IMG/VR virus record: IMGVR_UViG_3300048586_000894
Coordinates: 1-33,985 of that record
Origin: a virus
Strand: one strand, 5' to 3'
Length of the DNA: 33,985 bases
Each line of letters starts with the position of its first letter. The stretch's first letter is position 1. Shown here in pieces: positions 5,085-26,754 of the stretch. The position numbers and the translations under genes are program-made. The notes below the pieces were generated by a model, which worked only from the letters and a program-made list of their open reading frames with translations, had not been told where the DNA came from and searched no databases.

Positions 5085-5422
5085 CCGGGCAGCAGCTCAC
5101 CATCGAAGAGGCGATCGCGAACCGCGACGGCATCCTGCACCTCATCGCCGGCGACCCCATGAAGTCCGCCTCGGTCCGCGCGGTCGCCGAGACCATCGCC
5201 CGCGTCGCTACCGCCGGGGACCGGGTCTCCGCGAACAGCATCCGCCCGCACCTGCCGACGTGGGTGAACACCGCCGCCATCGGCCCCGCGTTCGGGCACC
5301 TGCAGCGCGCCGGCGCCCTGCACCGCCTCGGCGAGGTCATCTCCACCGACGAGGGCACCCACGGCAAGCGCGTCGCCCTGTACCTCGTCACCGACGACGC
5401 GCTTGAGGCGATCGCGTCATGA
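5081..5422 (+). CDS. Hypothetical protein, probable winged-helix fold
   Basis: A 113-residue protein of unrecognised family. The middle (SVRAVAETIARVA, then NSIRPHLPTWVNTAAIGPAF, then LQRAGALHRLGEVISTDE) reads like helix-helix-helix-wing, suggesting a winged helix that binds DNA or another protein. The GTG start is fixed by the GTGA overlap with the RusA gene. A replication or regulatory accessory role is plausible but unproven. Confidence 0.6.
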   Translation: MTGQQLTIEEAIANRDGILHLIAGDPMKSASVRAVAETIARVATAGDRVSANSIRPHLPTWVNTAAIGPAFGHLQRAGALHRLGEVISTDEGTHGKRVALYLVTDDALEAIAS

Positions 5423-5571
5423 GCAGCACCGCGTCGTTCCAGGACCGCGCCCTGGCCCGCGTGCATCGCGGGCCCTGCGGTGGCTGGCACTACGACGACT
5501 CCCGCGACCGGCGCCGCTTCTGCTCCGCGTGCGTAGCCCTCGGCGTGCCCCGCGAGGTGGGGCCGTCATGA
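5419..5571 (+). CDS. 50-residue candidate zinc-binding protein
   Basis: This short frame fits exactly between two ATGA overlaps. The product has C20 and H24 (GPCGGWHYD) and then C35 and C38 (RFCSAC), a C-x3-H / C-x2-C layout that could bind one zinc. It is basic in the centre. Function unknown, but it is one of several small Cys/His-rich proteins in this operon. Confidence 0.55.
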   Translation: MSSTASFQDRALARVHRGPCGGWHYDDSRDRRRFCSACVALGVPREVGPS

Positions 5572-20633: not shown

Positions 20634-21653
20634 ATGGCACTGCTTTCCGACTCCTCATGGGGGCTCGCCAACGAGTCGACCCCGGGCACCTACGTCGCCC
20701 CGACCCGCTGGTTCGAGGTCATGTCGCCCGACTTCGACGCTCGCAAGAACGTGAAGCAGGGCAAGGGCATGCGCGTCGGTGCCCGCGTCGCCCGCTCTGC
20801 CCGGCGCGTCGTCACGTCCGCGGACGCCGGAGGCTCCGTCGGCATCGAGGCCGTCTCCAAGGGGCTCGGGCTGCTCCTCGAGTCGATGTTCGGCGTGGGC
20901 GCGTCGACGCTCGTGTCCGGCGCGACCTACCAGCAGCTGTTCACCCCCGCGACCGGCACCGTGGTCCCGTCGAGGACCCTGCAGACCGGCACCGTCCGCG
21001 CCGACGCGTCCGGCACCGTCGACGCGGTGTCGTACCTCGGTGCCGCGGTCGAGTCGTGGGAGCTGGAGATCCCGAACGACGACATCGTGACCCTCAAGGC
21101 CGTGTGGGACGCGATCAACTGGACCACCGCGCAGTCCTACGTCGCCCCGTCCTACCCGGCGGCGCCGTCGCTGTTCCACTGGTCGCACCTGGCCGTCACC
21201 CTCGGTGGCGCCGTCACCGTGCCGACGACGACCGCGCTCGCATCCGGCGGCACCGCAGCGACGAACGTGCGCTCGGTGAAGTTCTCCGGCGACAACCACC
21301 TCAAGAAGGACCGTTTCAACGCCGGCGGCGCCGGCCGCAAGTCCCGCCAGCTCATCGGCGACCTGGACCTGTCCGGCGAGCTCGAGGTCGAGTACATCGA
21401 CACCGTGATCCGCGACGCCTACCTCAACGACACCGCGCTCGCGCTCACCGCGACCCTGACCGGCACCGAGGCGCTGTCGACGGGCACCGCGACCCTGCAG
21501 GTCACCTGCCCGGAGATCAAACTGAACGGCGAGATGCCGAAGGGCAACGACGACGACCTGCCGATCCTCAAGGTGCCGTTCGACATCCTCGACGGCCAGG
21601 TCGCCGGTTCGCCGATCTACGTCGCGCTCCGCACCGCCGACACCGCGCTCTGA
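20634..21653 (+). CDS. Major tail tube protein
   Basis: A 339-residue tube protein whose hexamers stack into the tail. The opening SDSSWGLANESTPGTYVAPT and WFEVMSPDFDARKN is typical of actinophage tail tube proteins, as are AGGSVGIEAVSKGLGLLLES, SYLGAAVESWELEIPNDDI, DVRSVKFSG-like (NVRSVKFSGDN) and the late segment CPEIKLNGEMPKGNDDDLPI. AGGAGG precedes the start. It is longer than minimal tube proteins, leaving room for an inserted surface loop or Ig-like domain near residues 220-270. Confidence 0.87.
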   Translation: MALLSDSSWGLANESTPGTYVAPTRWFEVMSPDFDARKNVKQGKGMRVGARVARSARRVVTSADAGGSVGIEAVSKGLGLLLESMFGVGASTLVSGATYQQLFTPATGTVVPSRTLQTGTVRADASGTVDAVSYLGAAVESWELEIPNDDIVTLKAVWDAINWTTAQSYVAPSYPAAPSLFHWSHLAVTLGGAVTVPTTTALASGGTAATNVRSVKFSGDNHLKKDRFNAGGAGRKSRQLIGDLDLSGELEVEYIDTVIRDAYLNDTALALTATLTGTEALSTGTATLQVTCPEIKLNGEMPKGNDDDLPILKVPFDILDGQVAGSPIYVALRTADTAL

Positions 21654-21659
21654 GCCCTC

Positions 21660-22259
21660 GTGGCCAGCCCGAAGCCCCCGGTCGAGATCTCCGCGGACGT
21701 CCGCCAGTTCATCGACCTGTCCGGGAAGACCTCGGCCGTGGAGCCGAAGCTGCGTCGTGCGCTGCGGCGACGCATGAAGGCCGCGGCGGAGAAGGCCGCG
21801 GTCGATGTGCGTGCGGAGGTGCTGAAGTCGCCGCCGTCCGGTGGCGTGTCGGGACGATCGCGCGGCATGCGTCGCGGGATCGCGTCCGGCGTCCGCGTGA
21901 CCCTCACGTCGACGACGGGCGCGTCCCGCGTCGGCGTGGTGGTGAAGTCCACCGGCTCCGGCCTCGACCCGCAGGACCGGTCCCTGGCCCGCGCCTACAA
22001 CAAGCCCACCTTCCGGCACCCCGTGTTCGGCGGCAAGAGCCGAGCGCGGGGCTTCGCCTCCGCCCTGTCCGGCGTGTCCTCCGGTGCCCGATCCCTCGAC
22101 CGTGCCCTCGCGTCGCGTGCCGCGACGAAGTGGGTCGAGCAGAAGGGCAACCCGTACTTCGAGGACGTGATCGTCAAGCACGCCGGCGACGTCGAGCGTG
22201 CCGTGTTCGCCGCGATGGACGAGGCCGCCGCTTCCCTCAGCTCCGGCCCCACCCACTAG
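21660..22259 (+). CDS. HK97 gp10-like neck/tail assembly protein, probable
   Basis: A 199-residue basic protein. The helical N-terminus (EPKLRRALRRRMKAAAEKAA, then VDVRAEVLKSPPSGG), a central beta segment, and the end WVEQKGNPYFEDVIVKHAGD with a terminal helix (VERAVFAAMDEAAASL) fit the HK97 gp10 family of tail-joining proteins. Usually this gene precedes the tube gene; here it follows. The GTG start is six bases after the tube stop. Assignment is by pattern and context. Confidence 0.65.
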   Translation: MASPKPPVEISADVRQFIDLSGKTSAVEPKLRRALRRRMKAAAEKAAVDVRAEVLKSPPSGGVSGRSRGMRRGIASGVRVTLTSTTGASRVGVVVKSTGSGLDPQDRSLARAYNKPTFRHPVFGGKSRARGFASALSGVSSGARSLDRALASRAATKWVEQKGNPYFEDVIVKHAGDVERAVFAAMDEAAASLSSGPTH

Positions 22260-22293: not shown

Positions 22294-22740
22294 ATGCTGA
22301 TCCGCATCGGAACCCGCACGTTCCCCGCCGTGTCCGTCGACTCCGCGACGCTCGCCGACCTCCTCGCGATCCGGTCCCAGACCGGGTTCTCGAAGAAGGA
22401 TCTCCGCGAGATGGCCGAGCGCACCGAGAAGCTCACCGAGGAGGAGGTCGAGGACTCCGACGAGGCCCTGACCATGATCGGGATCCTCGTGTGGCTCTCG
22501 CGCCGCCACGCCGGCGAAGACCTCACCCTCGAGGAGGCGTGCGCGTTCCCCCTCGCCGAGCTCGAGTTCATCCTCGAGAAGGACGACCCGGTGCCGGCGG
22601 GTGCGGGTGGAGGTGAGGACGTCCCCCCTCGCGCCCGCCGGGAGGGTTCCGACCGTCCCGGCACACCGTCGGAGCCTCGACCCGTCCCGACCGATCGTTC
22701 GAGGAAGAAGACCTCGAGCAAGGCGTCGCGAAGCGCCTGA
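22294..22740 (+). CDS. Tail assembly chaperone (G product)
   Basis: This 148-residue protein is the unshifted product of a G/GT-type chaperone pair that binds the tape measure during tail assembly. It is acidic and helical (ATLADLLAIRSQTGFSKKDL, then LTEEEVEDSDEALTMIGILV, then DLTLEEACAFPLAELEFILE) with a disordered Arg/Pro/Ser tail. It lies between the neck gene and the tape measure gene, the canonical place. A slippery C CCC CCT in its frame at 22623 allows a -1 shift into the T frame. The ATG at 22294 follows GAAGG at modest spacing. Confidence 0.85.
   Translation: MLIRIGTRTFPAVSVDSATLADLLAIRSQTGFSKKDLREMAERTEKLTEEEVEDSDEALTMIGILVWLSRRHAGEDLTLEEACAFPLAELEFILEKDDPVPAGAGGGEDVPPRARREGSDRPGTPSEPRPVPTDRSRKKTSSKASRSA
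22623..22662 (+). promoter_or_regulatory. Programmed -1 frameshift cassette
   Basis: The slippery heptamer C CCC CCT (22623-22629) is exactly in phase with the G frame (GTC CCC CCT). Seven bases later a perfect 7-bp stem begins, GCCGGGA (22637-22643) with TCCCGGC (22656-22662). The -1 frame is closed by TGA at 22614-22616, just upstream of the heptamer, and open from there to 22887. Heptamer, spacer and stem have textbook spacing. Confidence 0.85.
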
Positions 22741-22889
22741 CGGTCGTGTGCCACCTGTGGCCGTCGATCTCCCCGTTCCCGTCCGGTCGCGTCGGATCCG
22801 TGTGGGACCTGCCCTGGTACGTGTGGGTCGGTTTCGCGCGGGCCGCTGACCAGCACGTCGCCGAACTGTCGAAGGAGGCTTCCCCGTGA
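22629..22889 (+). CDS. T extension of the tail chaperone (reached by -1 frameshift)
   Basis: After slippage the ribosome reads 86 more residues in the -1 frame, giving a GT protein of about 198 residues. The extension is protein-like near its end (VWDLPWYVWVGFARAADQ, HVAELSKEASP), a pattern seen in other actinophage GT proteins. It has no good start of its own and no ribosome site. The TGA at 22887-22889 overlaps the GTG of the tape measure gene in the usual GTGA manner, a further sign that this frame is translated. Confidence 0.82.
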   Translation, partial: SRPPGGFRPSRHTVGASTRPDRSFEEEDLEQGVAKRLTVVCHLWPSISPFPSGRVGSVWDLPWYVWVGFARAADQHVAELSKEASP

Positions 22890-24664
22890 GCGGTCGCACG
22901 TCGAGCCTCTCGTTCAAGCTGTTCGGGCAGGACGTCTCCGCGACCCGCACGCTCAAGGGCGTCGGGACCGAGGCCCGCTCCACCGGCAAGCACTTCCGCG
23001 ACATGGGGAAGATCGCCGGCGGAGCGATGGCCGGCATCGGGCTCGCCGCTGCGGGGCAGCAGCTCCTGCAGTTCGGCAAGGACTCGATGGACGCCTTCCA
23101 GAACACCGGCGGTGTCGCGCTGAAGCTGCAGCGCTACATGGGCGGCACCGCTGAGGACGCATCCCGGCTCGGGCTCGCGCTGAAGCTCACCGGCGTCGAC
23201 TCCGAGGCCGCGGCGAAGTCGTTCGGGATCTTCTCGAAGTTCTCCAGCGCCGCCGGGGACCAGCTCGACTCCTACGACTCGAAGGTCGCCGCGGCCGCGC
23301 TCAAGGGGAAGGCGTTCACCGGGCAGCTCGGCGGGTCGGCGTCGGCGTTCGCGAAGCTCGGCGTGCAGCTGCGCGGCGCGGACGGCGAGGCCCGTCCGAT
23401 GAAGGACCTCCTCATCGACATGGCCGATCAGATCTCCAAGATGCCCCCGGGCGTCGACAAGACCACGCTCGTGCTGAAGGCGTTCGGCAAGCAGGGAATG
23501 GCGATGCTGCCGTTCCTGAACAAGGGCGCCGCCGGCATCGAGGAGATGATGGCGAAGTCCGACGAGCTCGGCACCACCCTGTCGGGCGCGGACCTCGAGG
23601 CCGTGAAGGCGAACACCAAGGCGAAGCGGGAGTTCGCCGCGACCGTCGAGGGCGTGCAGATCTCCCTCGGCCGCGGCCTGTACCCCGTCCTCACGACGAT
23701 GATGAACTACTTCAAGTCGACGCTCCTGCCAGTCCTGAAGACGGCGACGGACTTCTTCCTCGAGCACTCCGACGTGATCCTCAAGGTCGCGACCGTGATC
23801 GGTGTCGTGCTCGCGGCCGTGAAGGGCTTCAACATCGCGATGGGCGTGTTCTCGACCATCGTGCGGGTCGCCACAGGGCTGCAGGCCGCGTGGAACCTCG
23901 TCATGATGATGAACCCGATCGGGCTGATCGTCCTCGCGATCATCGCCTTCATCGGGATCCTCGTCCTGGCCTACAACAAGGTCGGCTGGTTCCGCGACCT
24001 CGTGGACAAGGCGTGGGCCGGCATCAAGGTCGCCATCTCCGCGGTCGTGAAGTGGTTCCAGCAGACCGCCTGGCCGATCCTGAAGACCGTCATCGGCTAC
24101 ATCGTCGGCTACTACCGCACCCTCTGGACCGTGTTCACGACCGTGGTCGGCTGGATCATCGGTCGCGGCGTCGCGCTCGTGACGTGGTTCCGTGAGCTCC
24201 CCGGGCGAGTGACCTCCGCGGTGTCGGGGCTCTGGGACGGCATCAAGAACTCGTTTCGCAACGCACTGAACTGGGTCATCCGCGCGTGGAACAGCTTCAG
24301 GCTGCAGTTCCCCAGCTTCGACTTCGACTGGAACGGGCCCCTCCCCGGCGGCGAGGTCACCGTCGGTGGGTGGACCGTCGACACCCCCAACCTGCCGATG
24401 CTCGCCCGCGGCGGCACCGCGCTGCGCTCCGGGCTCGCGATCGTCGGCGAGCGGGGCCCCGAGATCGTGTCCCTCAACCGCGGCGCGACCGTCATGCCCC
24501 TCGGCCGCGCCGGCGGCACGGTCCTCGAGCTGCACCTCGACGGGATCGTCATCGGCGGGTCACGCCGCTCGGTCGGCCGTGAGCTGCTCGGTCTCATCGA
24601 CGACGCGATCGCGTCCGGCGGGGCCCGCCCGAACCGGCTCATGGTCCGCGGCGGTGGTCGCTGA
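22886..24664 (+). CDS. Tape measure protein
   Basis: A 592-residue tape measure protein, which sets tail length and helps DNA cross the membrane. It opens SLSFKLFGQDVSATRTLKGV and contains MGGTAEDASRLGLALKLTG, typical of the family. Two or three hydrophobic stretches lie in the middle (near 300-325 and 345-372: NPIGLIVLAIIAFIGILVLA), then Trp-rich helices and a C-terminal motif IVGERGPEIVSLNRGATVMP, shared by many siphovirus tape measures. At about 1.5 angstroms per residue the tail would be near 90 nm. GTG start overlaps the T-frame stop. Confidence 0.92.
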   Translation: MSGRTSSLSFKLFGQDVSATRTLKGVGTEARSTGKHFRDMGKIAGGAMAGIGLAAAGQQLLQFGKDSMDAFQNTGGVALKLQRYMGGTAEDASRLGLALKLTGVDSEAAAKSFGIFSKFSSAAGDQLDSYDSKVAAAALKGKAFTGQLGGSASAFAKLGVQLRGADGEARPMKDLLIDMADQISKMPPGVDKTTLVLKAFGKQGMAMLPFLNKGAAGIEEMMAKSDELGTTLSGADLEAVKANTKAKREFAATVEGVQISLGRGLYPVLTTMMNYFKSTLLPVLKTATDFFLEHSDVILKVATVIGVVLAAVKGFNIAMGVFSTIVRVATGLQAAWNLVMMMNPIGLIVLAIIAFIGILVLAYNKVGWFRDLVDKAWAGIKVAISAVVKWFQQTAWPILKTVIGYIVGYYRTLWTVFTTVVGWIIGRGVALVTWFRELPGRVTSAVSGLWDGIKNSFRNALNWVIRAWNSFRLQFPSFDFDWNGPLPGGEVTVGGWTVDTPNLPMLARGGTALRSGLAIVGERGPEIVSLNRGATVMPLGRAGGTVLELHLDGIVIGGSRRSVGRELLGLIDDAIASGGARPNRLMVRGGGR

Positions 24665-26754
24665 TGGCCGCGGGGCTGCCCACGGCCATCCTCTGCGAGA
24701 TCGAGTTCACCGCCGGCGTGTGGACCGACGTCTCGTCGCGCTGGACCGAGCCCGTCGACATCGTCAGGGGCCGCACCGACTCCGCCTCGGACGTGCAGCC
24801 GACCGTGATCACCGTCGAGCTCGAGAACAACGACGGCGCCCTCACCCCCGACAACCCGCTCTCGCAGTACTTCCCGAACGTTGTCGAGGGGAAGCGGCTC
24901 CGAATCCGAGTCACGAAGGGCGCCACCTCGACGCGGTTCCTCGGGCGGATCACCGCGCTGGACCCCGAGCTCACCCCCGACCTCGTGTCCTCGATCGTGA
25001 AGGTGACCGCGACCGACAAGCTCGGCGACCTGCAGAAGATCCCGATGGAGTCCGCGCTGCGGCACATGATCCGCGGGGAGATCCCGCAGGACTGGTTCCC
25101 GCTCGACGGCGGCCGCGGCGCCGGCCGGATCCAGACGGCGCTCCGCGACGGGACCGGCGTGTTCGACCAGCTCGTGTGGTCGGGCACCCCCGGGTTCGGT
25201 GAGAGCGACGGCCCGGACGGGTCGGCGTGCACGTCGCTGGTGTCCGGGTCGACGCTGTACGCGACCAATTCGTCCAACCCGCAGACCACCGGTCAGGTCG
25301 GCGTGTGGGTCAAGCTCGAGCCCGAGAGCCCGGAGTCGATGTTCCTCCTGGCGTACCTCGACGACACGATCTCCTCGGTCGACTACTTCGGGCAGCTCAT
25401 CCTGTTCACGTCGTCGACCGGGAAGCTGCGCGCGATCCGGTCCTACAACAACACTCCCTTCGACACGATCTACGACGGGTCGACGGACCTGTCGCCGGTG
25501 TCGATCGCCGACGGCGCGTGGCACTTCATCCTCTGGGACGAGATGAACTCGCCATCGAAGCGCCCGCTGCTGTTCCTCGACGGGGTCAAGATCGCGGAGC
25601 CGGGCCTGTCGATCGGCTCATATGCGTCGGGCATCCGGAAGGTCCGGCTCGGCGCCGGAGCGACGGGCAAGACGACGCTCGCGCACGTGTTCTTCACCAC
25701 GGCGCCCTACAACGCTGGTCTGGCGCGCGACGTGTGGGCCGCCGGTGCCCCAGGCGCCGGCGGGATCACCCTCTCGGCGTGGGCGGACTGGCTCGACTAC
25801 TGGTCCGGTCAGACGATCGCGTTCGACGGCACGAGCACCAAGGACGGCACCGCCCCCGACTCCGCGGGGAAGTCAGCCCTCGAGGTCGCTCTCGCGATCG
25901 CCCGCGGCGAGTCCGGGATCCTGTACCACGACTACGCGTCCGACTCGATCAAGATGCGGCTGCGGTCGACGACCCGTTCCGCGACCGTGGCGATGACGAT
26001 CGACGCGACCGGCGACCTCGACGGCGCCCCACAGCTGGCCCGGGAGAACACCCTCCGAGTGGCCCAGGCGACCGCGAAGAACGGCGGGCTGGACATCAGC
26101 GCGGAGGACTCGACCCTCCTCGCCGAGTTGGGCCCGGTGTCCGCCGACGTCGAGGCGCCCCTGTCGAGCGAGGTCGAGCTCTACTCCGTCGCGTCCAACC
26201 GGATCAGCATCGGCCGCGATCAGAAGGTCCGGTTCTCGAAGCTGACTGTGGACCTCGTGACCGCGCAGACCGACCTCTACGCTGCGCTGTTCGCGCTCCT
26301 GCCCGGCGACCGCATTCGGGTCTCCGGATCCGCGCTGCAGACCCACTTGGGTGTCACGTACCTCGACGGCTACGCCGAGGGATGGACCGAGACGATCGGG
26401 CCCGAGACCTTCGAGTTCAAGCCGGACCTGTCGTCGGCGGCTGTGATCGAGGGCGTGTTCGACACGGCCCGGTTCGCGTTCGGCGACGGCGTGTGCACGG
26501 GCTCCGCTGTCACGTCGTCGGGCACGTCCCTGACCCTCACGTGGACCGGCGGCGTCGCACTGTCGACGTCGGCCGGCGACTACCCGGTGGACCTCGACCT
26601 CAACGGCGAGCGGGTCACCATCTCGTCGCCGCCTGCGGGCTCGAGCTCACCGCAGACCGTGACCATCGTCCGCGGCGTCGCGCCGACCGTCGCCCGCGCG
26701 CACGCGGCCGGCGAGCCGGTGGAGATCTGGAACGCCGGCCGATGGGCGTACTGA
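24664..26754 (+). CDS. Tail-tip minor tail protein with internal LamG-like domain
   Basis: A 696-residue protein right after the tape measure, coupled by a TGATG overlap. The N-terminal 150 residues resemble tail-tip hub domains (IEFTAGVWTDVSSRWTEPVD, PTVITVELENNDGALTPDNP). About residues 195-360 read as a concanavalin-like LamG insertion (GQVGVWVKLEPESPESMFLL, DGAWHFILWDEMNSPSKRPL, LFLDGVKIAEPGLSI). The hub-like fold resumes after about 370, and the last 80 residues form a small beta domain ending TVTIVRGVAPTVARAH. The LamG part may bind cell-surface sugars. Confidence 0.8.
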   Translation: MAAGLPTAILCEIEFTAGVWTDVSSRWTEPVDIVRGRTDSASDVQPTVITVELENNDGALTPDNPLSQYFPNVVEGKRLRIRVTKGATSTRFLGRITALDPELTPDLVSSIVKVTATDKLGDLQKIPMESALRHMIRGEIPQDWFPLDGGRGAGRIQTALRDGTGVFDQLVWSGTPGFGESDGPDGSACTSLVSGSTLYATNSSNPQTTGQVGVWVKLEPESPESMFLLAYLDDTISSVDYFGQLILFTSSTGKLRAIRSYNNTPFDTIYDGSTDLSPVSIADGAWHFILWDEMNSPSKRPLLFLDGVKIAEPGLSIGSYASGIRKVRLGAGATGKTTLAHVFFTTAPYNAGLARDVWAAGAPGAGGITLSAWADWLDYWSGQTIAFDGTSTKDGTAPDSAGKSALEVALAIARGESGILYHDYASDSIKMRLRSTTRSATVAMTIDATGDLDGAPQLARENTLRVAQATAKNGGLDISAEDSTLLAELGPVSADVEAPLSSEVELYSVASNRISIGRDQKVRFSKLTVDLVTAQTDLYAALFALLPGDRIRVSGSALQTHLGVTYLDGYAEGWTETIGPETFEFKPDLSSAAVIEGVFDTARFAFGDGVCTGSAVTSSGTSLTLTWTGGVALSTSAGDYPVDLDLNGERVTISSPPAGSSSPQTVTIVRGVAPTVARAHAAGEPVEIWNAGRWAY

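Follow-up and report, generated by a model that had tools for sequence, protein, structure and literature searches.

A proline-codon slip site for putative -1 frameshifting at the tail-chaperone G/T junction of a metagenomic siphophage

The virus record studied here (IMGVR_UViG_3300048586_000894, 33,985 bases in IMG/VR; this whole stretch is referred to as the window) contains a pair of overlapping tail genes, G and T, and we propose that -1 ribosomal frameshifting at a C CCC CCT heptamer would yield G together with a little of a G-T fusion, a reading to which we assign a probability of roughly 0.87. Most ribosomes would translate G through to its stop codon at 22740, and a minority positioned on GTC CCC CCT would encounter a GC hairpin located 7 nt ahead. 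In these ribosomes both proline tRNAs would slip back by one base (P site, CCC to CCC; A site, CCU to CCC), and the all-C form of the site would let the P-site tRNA re-pair perfectly. The slipped ribosomes would go on in the T frame to produce G-T (..EDVPP-SRPPGGFRP..), terminating at 22889, where the stop overlaps the start codon of the tape measure gene. G plus a small amount of G-T would help to load tube subunits onto the tape measure, in the manner of lambda. Comparison with relatives strongly supports the frameshift reading, and we infer the slippage itself, its rate and the tRNAs involved. Frameshifting in phage tail chaperones has long been known; the slip site of the window is an unusual proline version of this well-known -1 signal.

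On the + strand, the genes are ordered tail tube, small tail gene, G, T and tape measure, such that two overlapping ORFs sit between the tail tube and tape measure genes, as in lambda-type G/G-T systems (Table 1). By this gene order G presumably acts as a tail assembly chaperone. The frame of T is -1 relative to G and is closed by a TGA just upstream of the heptamer, and G can be joined to T by a -1 shift alone within a 121-nt region. C CCC CCT, read as GTC CCC CCT in the G frame, is the sole in-phase XXXYYYZ heptamer within this permissive overlap. Downstream, the T-frame TGA and the tape-measure GTG share bases in the sequence GTGA (22886-22889), and the earliest start codon in the T frame is a GTG at 22746, just past the G stop. 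A preliminary description made from the window alone had listed the in-phase heptamer, the upstream TGA, a seven-base spacer followed by a perfect 7-bp GC stem, and the GTGA overlap; all of these were located again, with GCCGGGA pairing perfectly with TCCCGGC. Judged on the window sequence alone, the site is barely beyond chance. Few in-phase XXXYYYZ heptamers (at 6 of 2715 codon positions) are present in eight ORFs, not all of which are verified genes, and the chance of at least one within the overlap is 0.087. CCCCCCT by itself is uninformative, because its count in the window (5) is no higher than the 6.3 expected from shuffles. With C as Y, this heptamer departs from the usual eukaryotic rule that Y is A or U, as given in PMC7618472.

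Table 1. Features of the tail-gene region of the window (positions are those of the 33,985-base record).
Feature	Position	Strand	Remarks
Tail tube protein	20634..21653	+	Phage_tube_2, 2.1e-19; phiC31-like major tail proteins
Small tail gene between tube and G	21660..22259	+	Order same as phiC31
G, tail assembly chaperone (by position), 148 aa	22294..22740	+	
GGAGGTGA, Shine-Dalgarno-like	22609..22616	+	dG -13.6 kcal/mol
TGA closing the -1 frame upstream of the heptamer	22614..22616	+	
T frame, -1 relative to G	22617..22889	+	Open stretch; putatively used from the heptamer on
Candidate slippery heptamer C CCC CCT	22623..22629	+	P site CCC; A site CCU to CCC
Spacer, 7 nt	22630..22636	+	
Stem 5' arm GCCGGGA	22637..22643	+	
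Stem 3' arm TCCCGGC	22656..22662	+	
Tape measure protein, GTG start	22886..24664	+	PHROG tape measure, 1.6e-42

Eight IMG/VR relatives with homologous G and T genes (L004, L005, L008, L014, L016, L017, L117 and L120; L004 and L005 are from one metagenome) were found via the tape measure and the next gene, then via T, and repeats under other identifiers were removed. Below E 0.3, a T profile HMM run against 14 + 80 loci retrieved L008, L014, L016 and L017 together with repeats of L004 (L006 and L020) and of L005 (L007 and L021), and no others. Loci L009-L013, L015, L018 and L019, which have other G/T-like genes or none readable, were left out of the counts. The T proteins of the relatives are 25-54% identical to that of the window, and pN/pS of T is <1 in 6/7 pairs, but these values are near saturation. 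In all nine divergent phages (window included), the order G, T, tape measure is kept and T is always in the -1 frame; in the phages compared, about 20 nt at most separate the end of T from the start of the tape measure gene. A slip site occupies the homologous spot, in G phase, in every one of them: GGACCCT in seven, CCCCCCT in the window and GGGAAAA in L016. The heptamer of the preliminary description thus has a counterpart in each relative, but its all-C form recurs in none. Likewise, the -1 stop close upstream of the site holds for the window but not as a family trait, as the T frame opens 21-576 nt upstream in the eight relatives. The shift site lies just 5' of T's conserved GFRSGR block, which follows within about 30 nt. 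Within the permissive region a single XXXYYYZ heptamer is present in the window and in L016, and none in the seven GGACCCT phages; L005 carries two further in-phase NNNCCCT sequences. Around the site, the alignment of the window with its relatives contains a gap of at least 6 bases between the heptamer and the GGNTTCCG stretch.

This comparison also bears on whether G and T are truly one fused gene split by an assembly or sequencing indel, as might be suspected for a homopolymer of six in a metagenome contig. We regard this as the least probable alternative, since the two-frame layout is found in all eight relatives, where there is no C6 run, and the Lys-rich zero-frame tail of G resembles that of L005. 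The in-phase homopolymer run could also invite transcriptional slippage on C6, giving mRNAs of altered length that encode G-T; however, seven relatives have only CCC at the site, and bacterial transcriptional slippage is described as needing longer runs or context (9 A/T, or T5C5 with an upstream hairpin; PMC5009743), which makes this account highly improbable. Just as improbable is use of CCC CCU as a +1 site into the frame ending at 22849. An 82-aa ORF is open in that frame and CCC/U-C encourages E. coli ribosomes to slip to +1 (PMC8129111), but the conserved T is -1 in 9/9 phages and no conserved +1 product is seen in the translations. Codon pairs of the CCC CCU type are reported to be decoded slowly and to slip readily to +1 (PMC8129111), so some +1 by-product may arise. 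The +1 frame is open at 22601-22849 of the window, beside the CCC CCU pair, and is not seen conserved in the relatives.

Independent (coupled) initiation of T at GTG 22746, with no fusion, would fit the location of this codon just past the G stop and the annotation of 6/11 phiC31-like pairs as two genes. It would, however, lose T's conserved GFRP..EEEDLEQGVAKRL part, and the first possible start varies in place and kind among the relatives; we consider it very unlikely. The earliest ATG, GTG or TTG in the T frame is located 105-195 nt past the site in 9/9 phages, beyond T's conserved first block. A start codon of T's own, which the preliminary description had named as an outcome that would speak against the frameshift, is thus absent near the junction in all nine.

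Similar junctions are found in phiC31-like Streptomyces phages. The tail tube of the window matches their major tail proteins (tblastn, E down to 2e-9, 25-28% identity), and one of them, RemusLoopin, has GGACCCT at its G/T boundary; in a scan of the collected loci, GGACCCT or CCCCCCT combined with a G/T architecture was found in the window family and RemusLoopin alone. The G protein of RemusLoopin matches 16 records representing 11 distinct phages, of which one record per phage was examined. In all 11, which are closely related and count as one or few events, CGGACCCTACCG is in G phase and T is open in the -1 frame. These phages (RemusLoopin, Heather, Vash, TG1, BT1 and others, with gp41/gp42 as the pair in phiC31) share with the window the order tube, small tail gene, G, T and tape measure, a T in the -1 frame and an A-site CCU. 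They differ in that GGACCCT is positioned 24 nt upstream of where the G stop ends (11/11), whereas the window has CCCCCCT at 117 nt; the window site lacks GGACCCT and has only CCCT in common with the phiC31-type junction. The T profile of one group matches that of the other weakly (probability 10.7%, E 0.0029). In-phase GGACCCT is absent from the actinophages PFR1, Eden, Schmidt, Chymera and pMLP1. The reading of G and T in the window as tail chaperones joined by a -1 shift, put forward in the preliminary description, is thus backed by nine divergent phages and by the phiC31-like group.

Annotation of these junctions is uneven. The phiC31 gp42 gene is annotated 'ribosomal slippage', and a joined G-T is annotated in phiC31, Vash, Lilbooboo and Samora, whereas 6/11 phages (L104, L106, L107, L108, L110 and L111) are annotated with two genes despite an in-phase GGACCCT at the junction. 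In BT1 (L115) the T gene is unannotated, though GGACCCT is again in phase at the junction. As 18/18 GGACCCT junctions are without any XXXYYYZ heptamer, searches for the textbook motif miss them, and the type of site may explain both the two-gene annotations and the missing T gene of BT1.

Among all 20 junctions (8/9 window-type and 11/11 phiC31-like), 19 have CCU in the A site at the shift point. This codon is rare, as CCT accounts for 1/79 Pro codons in four tail genes of the window. The product of the locus CCT frequencies over the eight window-type CCT loci is 10^-10, a value that relatedness and the overlapping T frame make less extreme in truth; it replaces a first estimate (0.167 of Pro codons in the window, product 10^-7.4) that was discarded because it used greedy ORFs, including false ones. 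The T-frame residue begun by the T of CCT varies (Tyr 5/8, Ser 2/8, Phe 1/8). The constancy of CCU, found with either GAC or CCC as the P-site codon, would also fit slippage in the A site only, in which the tetramer C_CCU would suffice, the CCU tRNA would re-pair to CCC, P-site pairing would be minor and the all-C run incidental. Reporter experiments in E. coli list C_CC.U among six tetramers active with a strong stimulator and report that all-pyrimidine motifs shift better, but the tetramers achieve about a tenth of the shifting of the best heptamers (PMC4066793). In addition, GGA precedes CCCT in 18/19 CCCT-type junctions, so the first triplet seems to be constrained. A-site-only slippage therefore seems rather unlikely, and slippage of both proline tRNAs is the reading we retain for the window.

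We lean slightly towards a broader interpretation, in which the junctions from phiC31 to metagenomic siphophages would form a proline class of tail-chaperone signals. The core of such signals would be the A-site change from CCU to CCC, which with a GGG anticodon would turn a wobble G-U pair into G-C; the P-site codon would normally be Asp (G GAC CCU), and the canonical forms C CCC CCU and G GGA AAA (L016) would arise from it by few base changes. CCU is kept in 19/20 junctions while the site varies among one non-canonical and two canonical forms, which offers a set of natural variants for finding out which tRNA re-pairing counts in high-GC bacteria. In a tree of G-T proteins, the window groups with L005 (87/87) and then with L120 (93/94), although the support for these forks falls short of the tool's 95/80 threshold. 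As both neighbors carry GGACCCT, the all-C heptamer of the window looks like a derived, 'canonicalised' variant of that site. C-type sites are not unknown, as the authors of PRFect report from SEA-PHAGES data that all four bases occur at each XYZ position (PMC10885494); among viral -1 sites, CCZ is described as rare in the A site (PMC7618472). CCCCCCT was absent from the papers listed in a literature search, and queries with GGACCCT, GGACCCU, CGGACCCT and GGACCC returned no phage slip site by title; the GGACCCT of phiC31 may be published already.

The hairpin 3' of the heptamer is predicted to act as a helper element. Its outer stem is extended by inner GGU/ACC pairs (22645-22647 with 22652-22654), its spacer of 7 nt lies within the 5-9 nt range and its predicted energy (-19.6 kcal/mol) is that of a stable stem, although the significance is modest. 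The 26-nt hairpin ranks at 0.0007 among 4007 like-sized windows, for a stretch that was picked post hoc, and the 39 nt 3' of the heptamer have a z of -2.02, with 10/200 shuffles as good. A 61-nt fold around the stem is not significant (z -0.09), and single-sequence fold statistics were accordingly not accepted as proving the stem. The other contrary outcome named in the preliminary description, relatives devoid of heptamer and stem alike, was not encountered among the nine phages: the slip site is present in 9/9, and the 39 nt past it have a better fold than the mean of the shuffles in 9/9 (z -0.80 to -3.25). Compared with like-placed 45-nt windows of the same genes, the hairpin region has a combined p of 9.5e-10 over nine loci (window rank 0.039), and compared with synonymous recodings of the G frame the combined p is 0.012 (window alone, P 0.067); both combined values ignore relatedness. 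A stem at one common position is found in L004, L014 and L117, the last with two double changes and one mismatch. Covariation is weak (2/8 pairs, 63/500 shuffles as good), in a test of four sequences that is too small for a claim and in which the L008 row is misaligned by a loop insert. An Rfam search of 22400-22900 gave no match.

Upstream of the heptamer, the full-length Shine-Dalgarno-like stretch GGAGGTGA, a feature absent from the preliminary description, includes the -1-frame TGA, and its GGAGG core ends 9 nt upstream of the slip site. It occurs once on the + strand of the window and is among the strongest such stretches (rank P 0.001 of 1750 positions); after a synonymous-codon control, the P value for the window alone is 0.022. 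Across the nine loci, the signal is strong against the gene background (p 2.7e-9) but is explained by acidic amino acids, as it disappears in a comparison with recodings that keep the amino-acid sequence (combined p 0.79). A stimulator of this kind was therefore rejected as a family trait, and the stretch is a weak lead, confined to the window, for a possible helper of slippage.

Comparison with known systems places the window near the lambda G/G-T pair (G GGA AAG), with which it agrees in position, in the -1 direction and in the logic of G plus G-T (PMC5009743, PMC7618472). The slip codons of lambda are Gly-Lys, whereas those of the window would be Pro-Pro, and the window G and T have no match in PHROG or Pfam. 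In E. coli dnaX the spacing is 10 nt. Its cassette presents a Shine-Dalgarno-like element, a heptamer and a hairpin in the order seen in the window (PMC3711429), but it uses A_AAA_AAG rather than C_CCC_CCU, and the Shine-Dalgarno-like part is unsupported in the relatives of the window. The GGACCCT of those relatives has CCC as its second triplet, whereas viruses with a G_GA first triplet, such as insect flaviviruses, have UUU. Imperfect first triplets are known (G_GU in T7 gene 10; G_GA in insect flaviviruses and others), and GGACCCT is of the G_GA form (PMC5009743).

An AlphaFold2 model of G predicts a confident fold for residues 1 to about 90-95, followed by a low-confidence or disordered tail, such that the shift (residues 111-112) would fall in a flexible tail; the model of T consists mainly of two helices. 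Fold searches with these models gave no match at E 0.001, and nothing significant in the PDB; among the best fold matches of the G model is one named tail assembly chaperone (E 0.33, probability 0.66). The G proteins of six relatives and the T proteins of two had no PHROG or Pfam match below 0.001. No match was obtained when the window G or T was searched in phages, G in IMG/VR, or L017 T, L120 T and L016 G in phages, and scans of genome contigs found no relative. Two candidates were rejected: the T match in L002/L003 is in the wrong frame, upstream of a portal-like gene, and the single phage match of L008 T is in an integrase (E 0.2).

Further observations concern the neighborhood of this junction. 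L015 has a weak G profile match (2.5e-6) and no T match; in this more distant phage, G and a -1 T-like frame are joined near C ACC CCT at 5200-5560, perhaps an A-site CCU site. At 382 aa, the tape measure of L005 (3986-5134) is shorter than those of the window and L004 (518-592 aa) but retains its C-terminal part, which points to a large deletion and to a tail of reduced length. The tail protein encoded at 24664-26754 of the window has two weak partial matches, and no more, in isolated phages, and relatives in 14 IMG/VR loci, with a conserved start (MAAGxPT..EFTAGVWTD) and end (..TVTIVRGVAPTxARAHxAG..).
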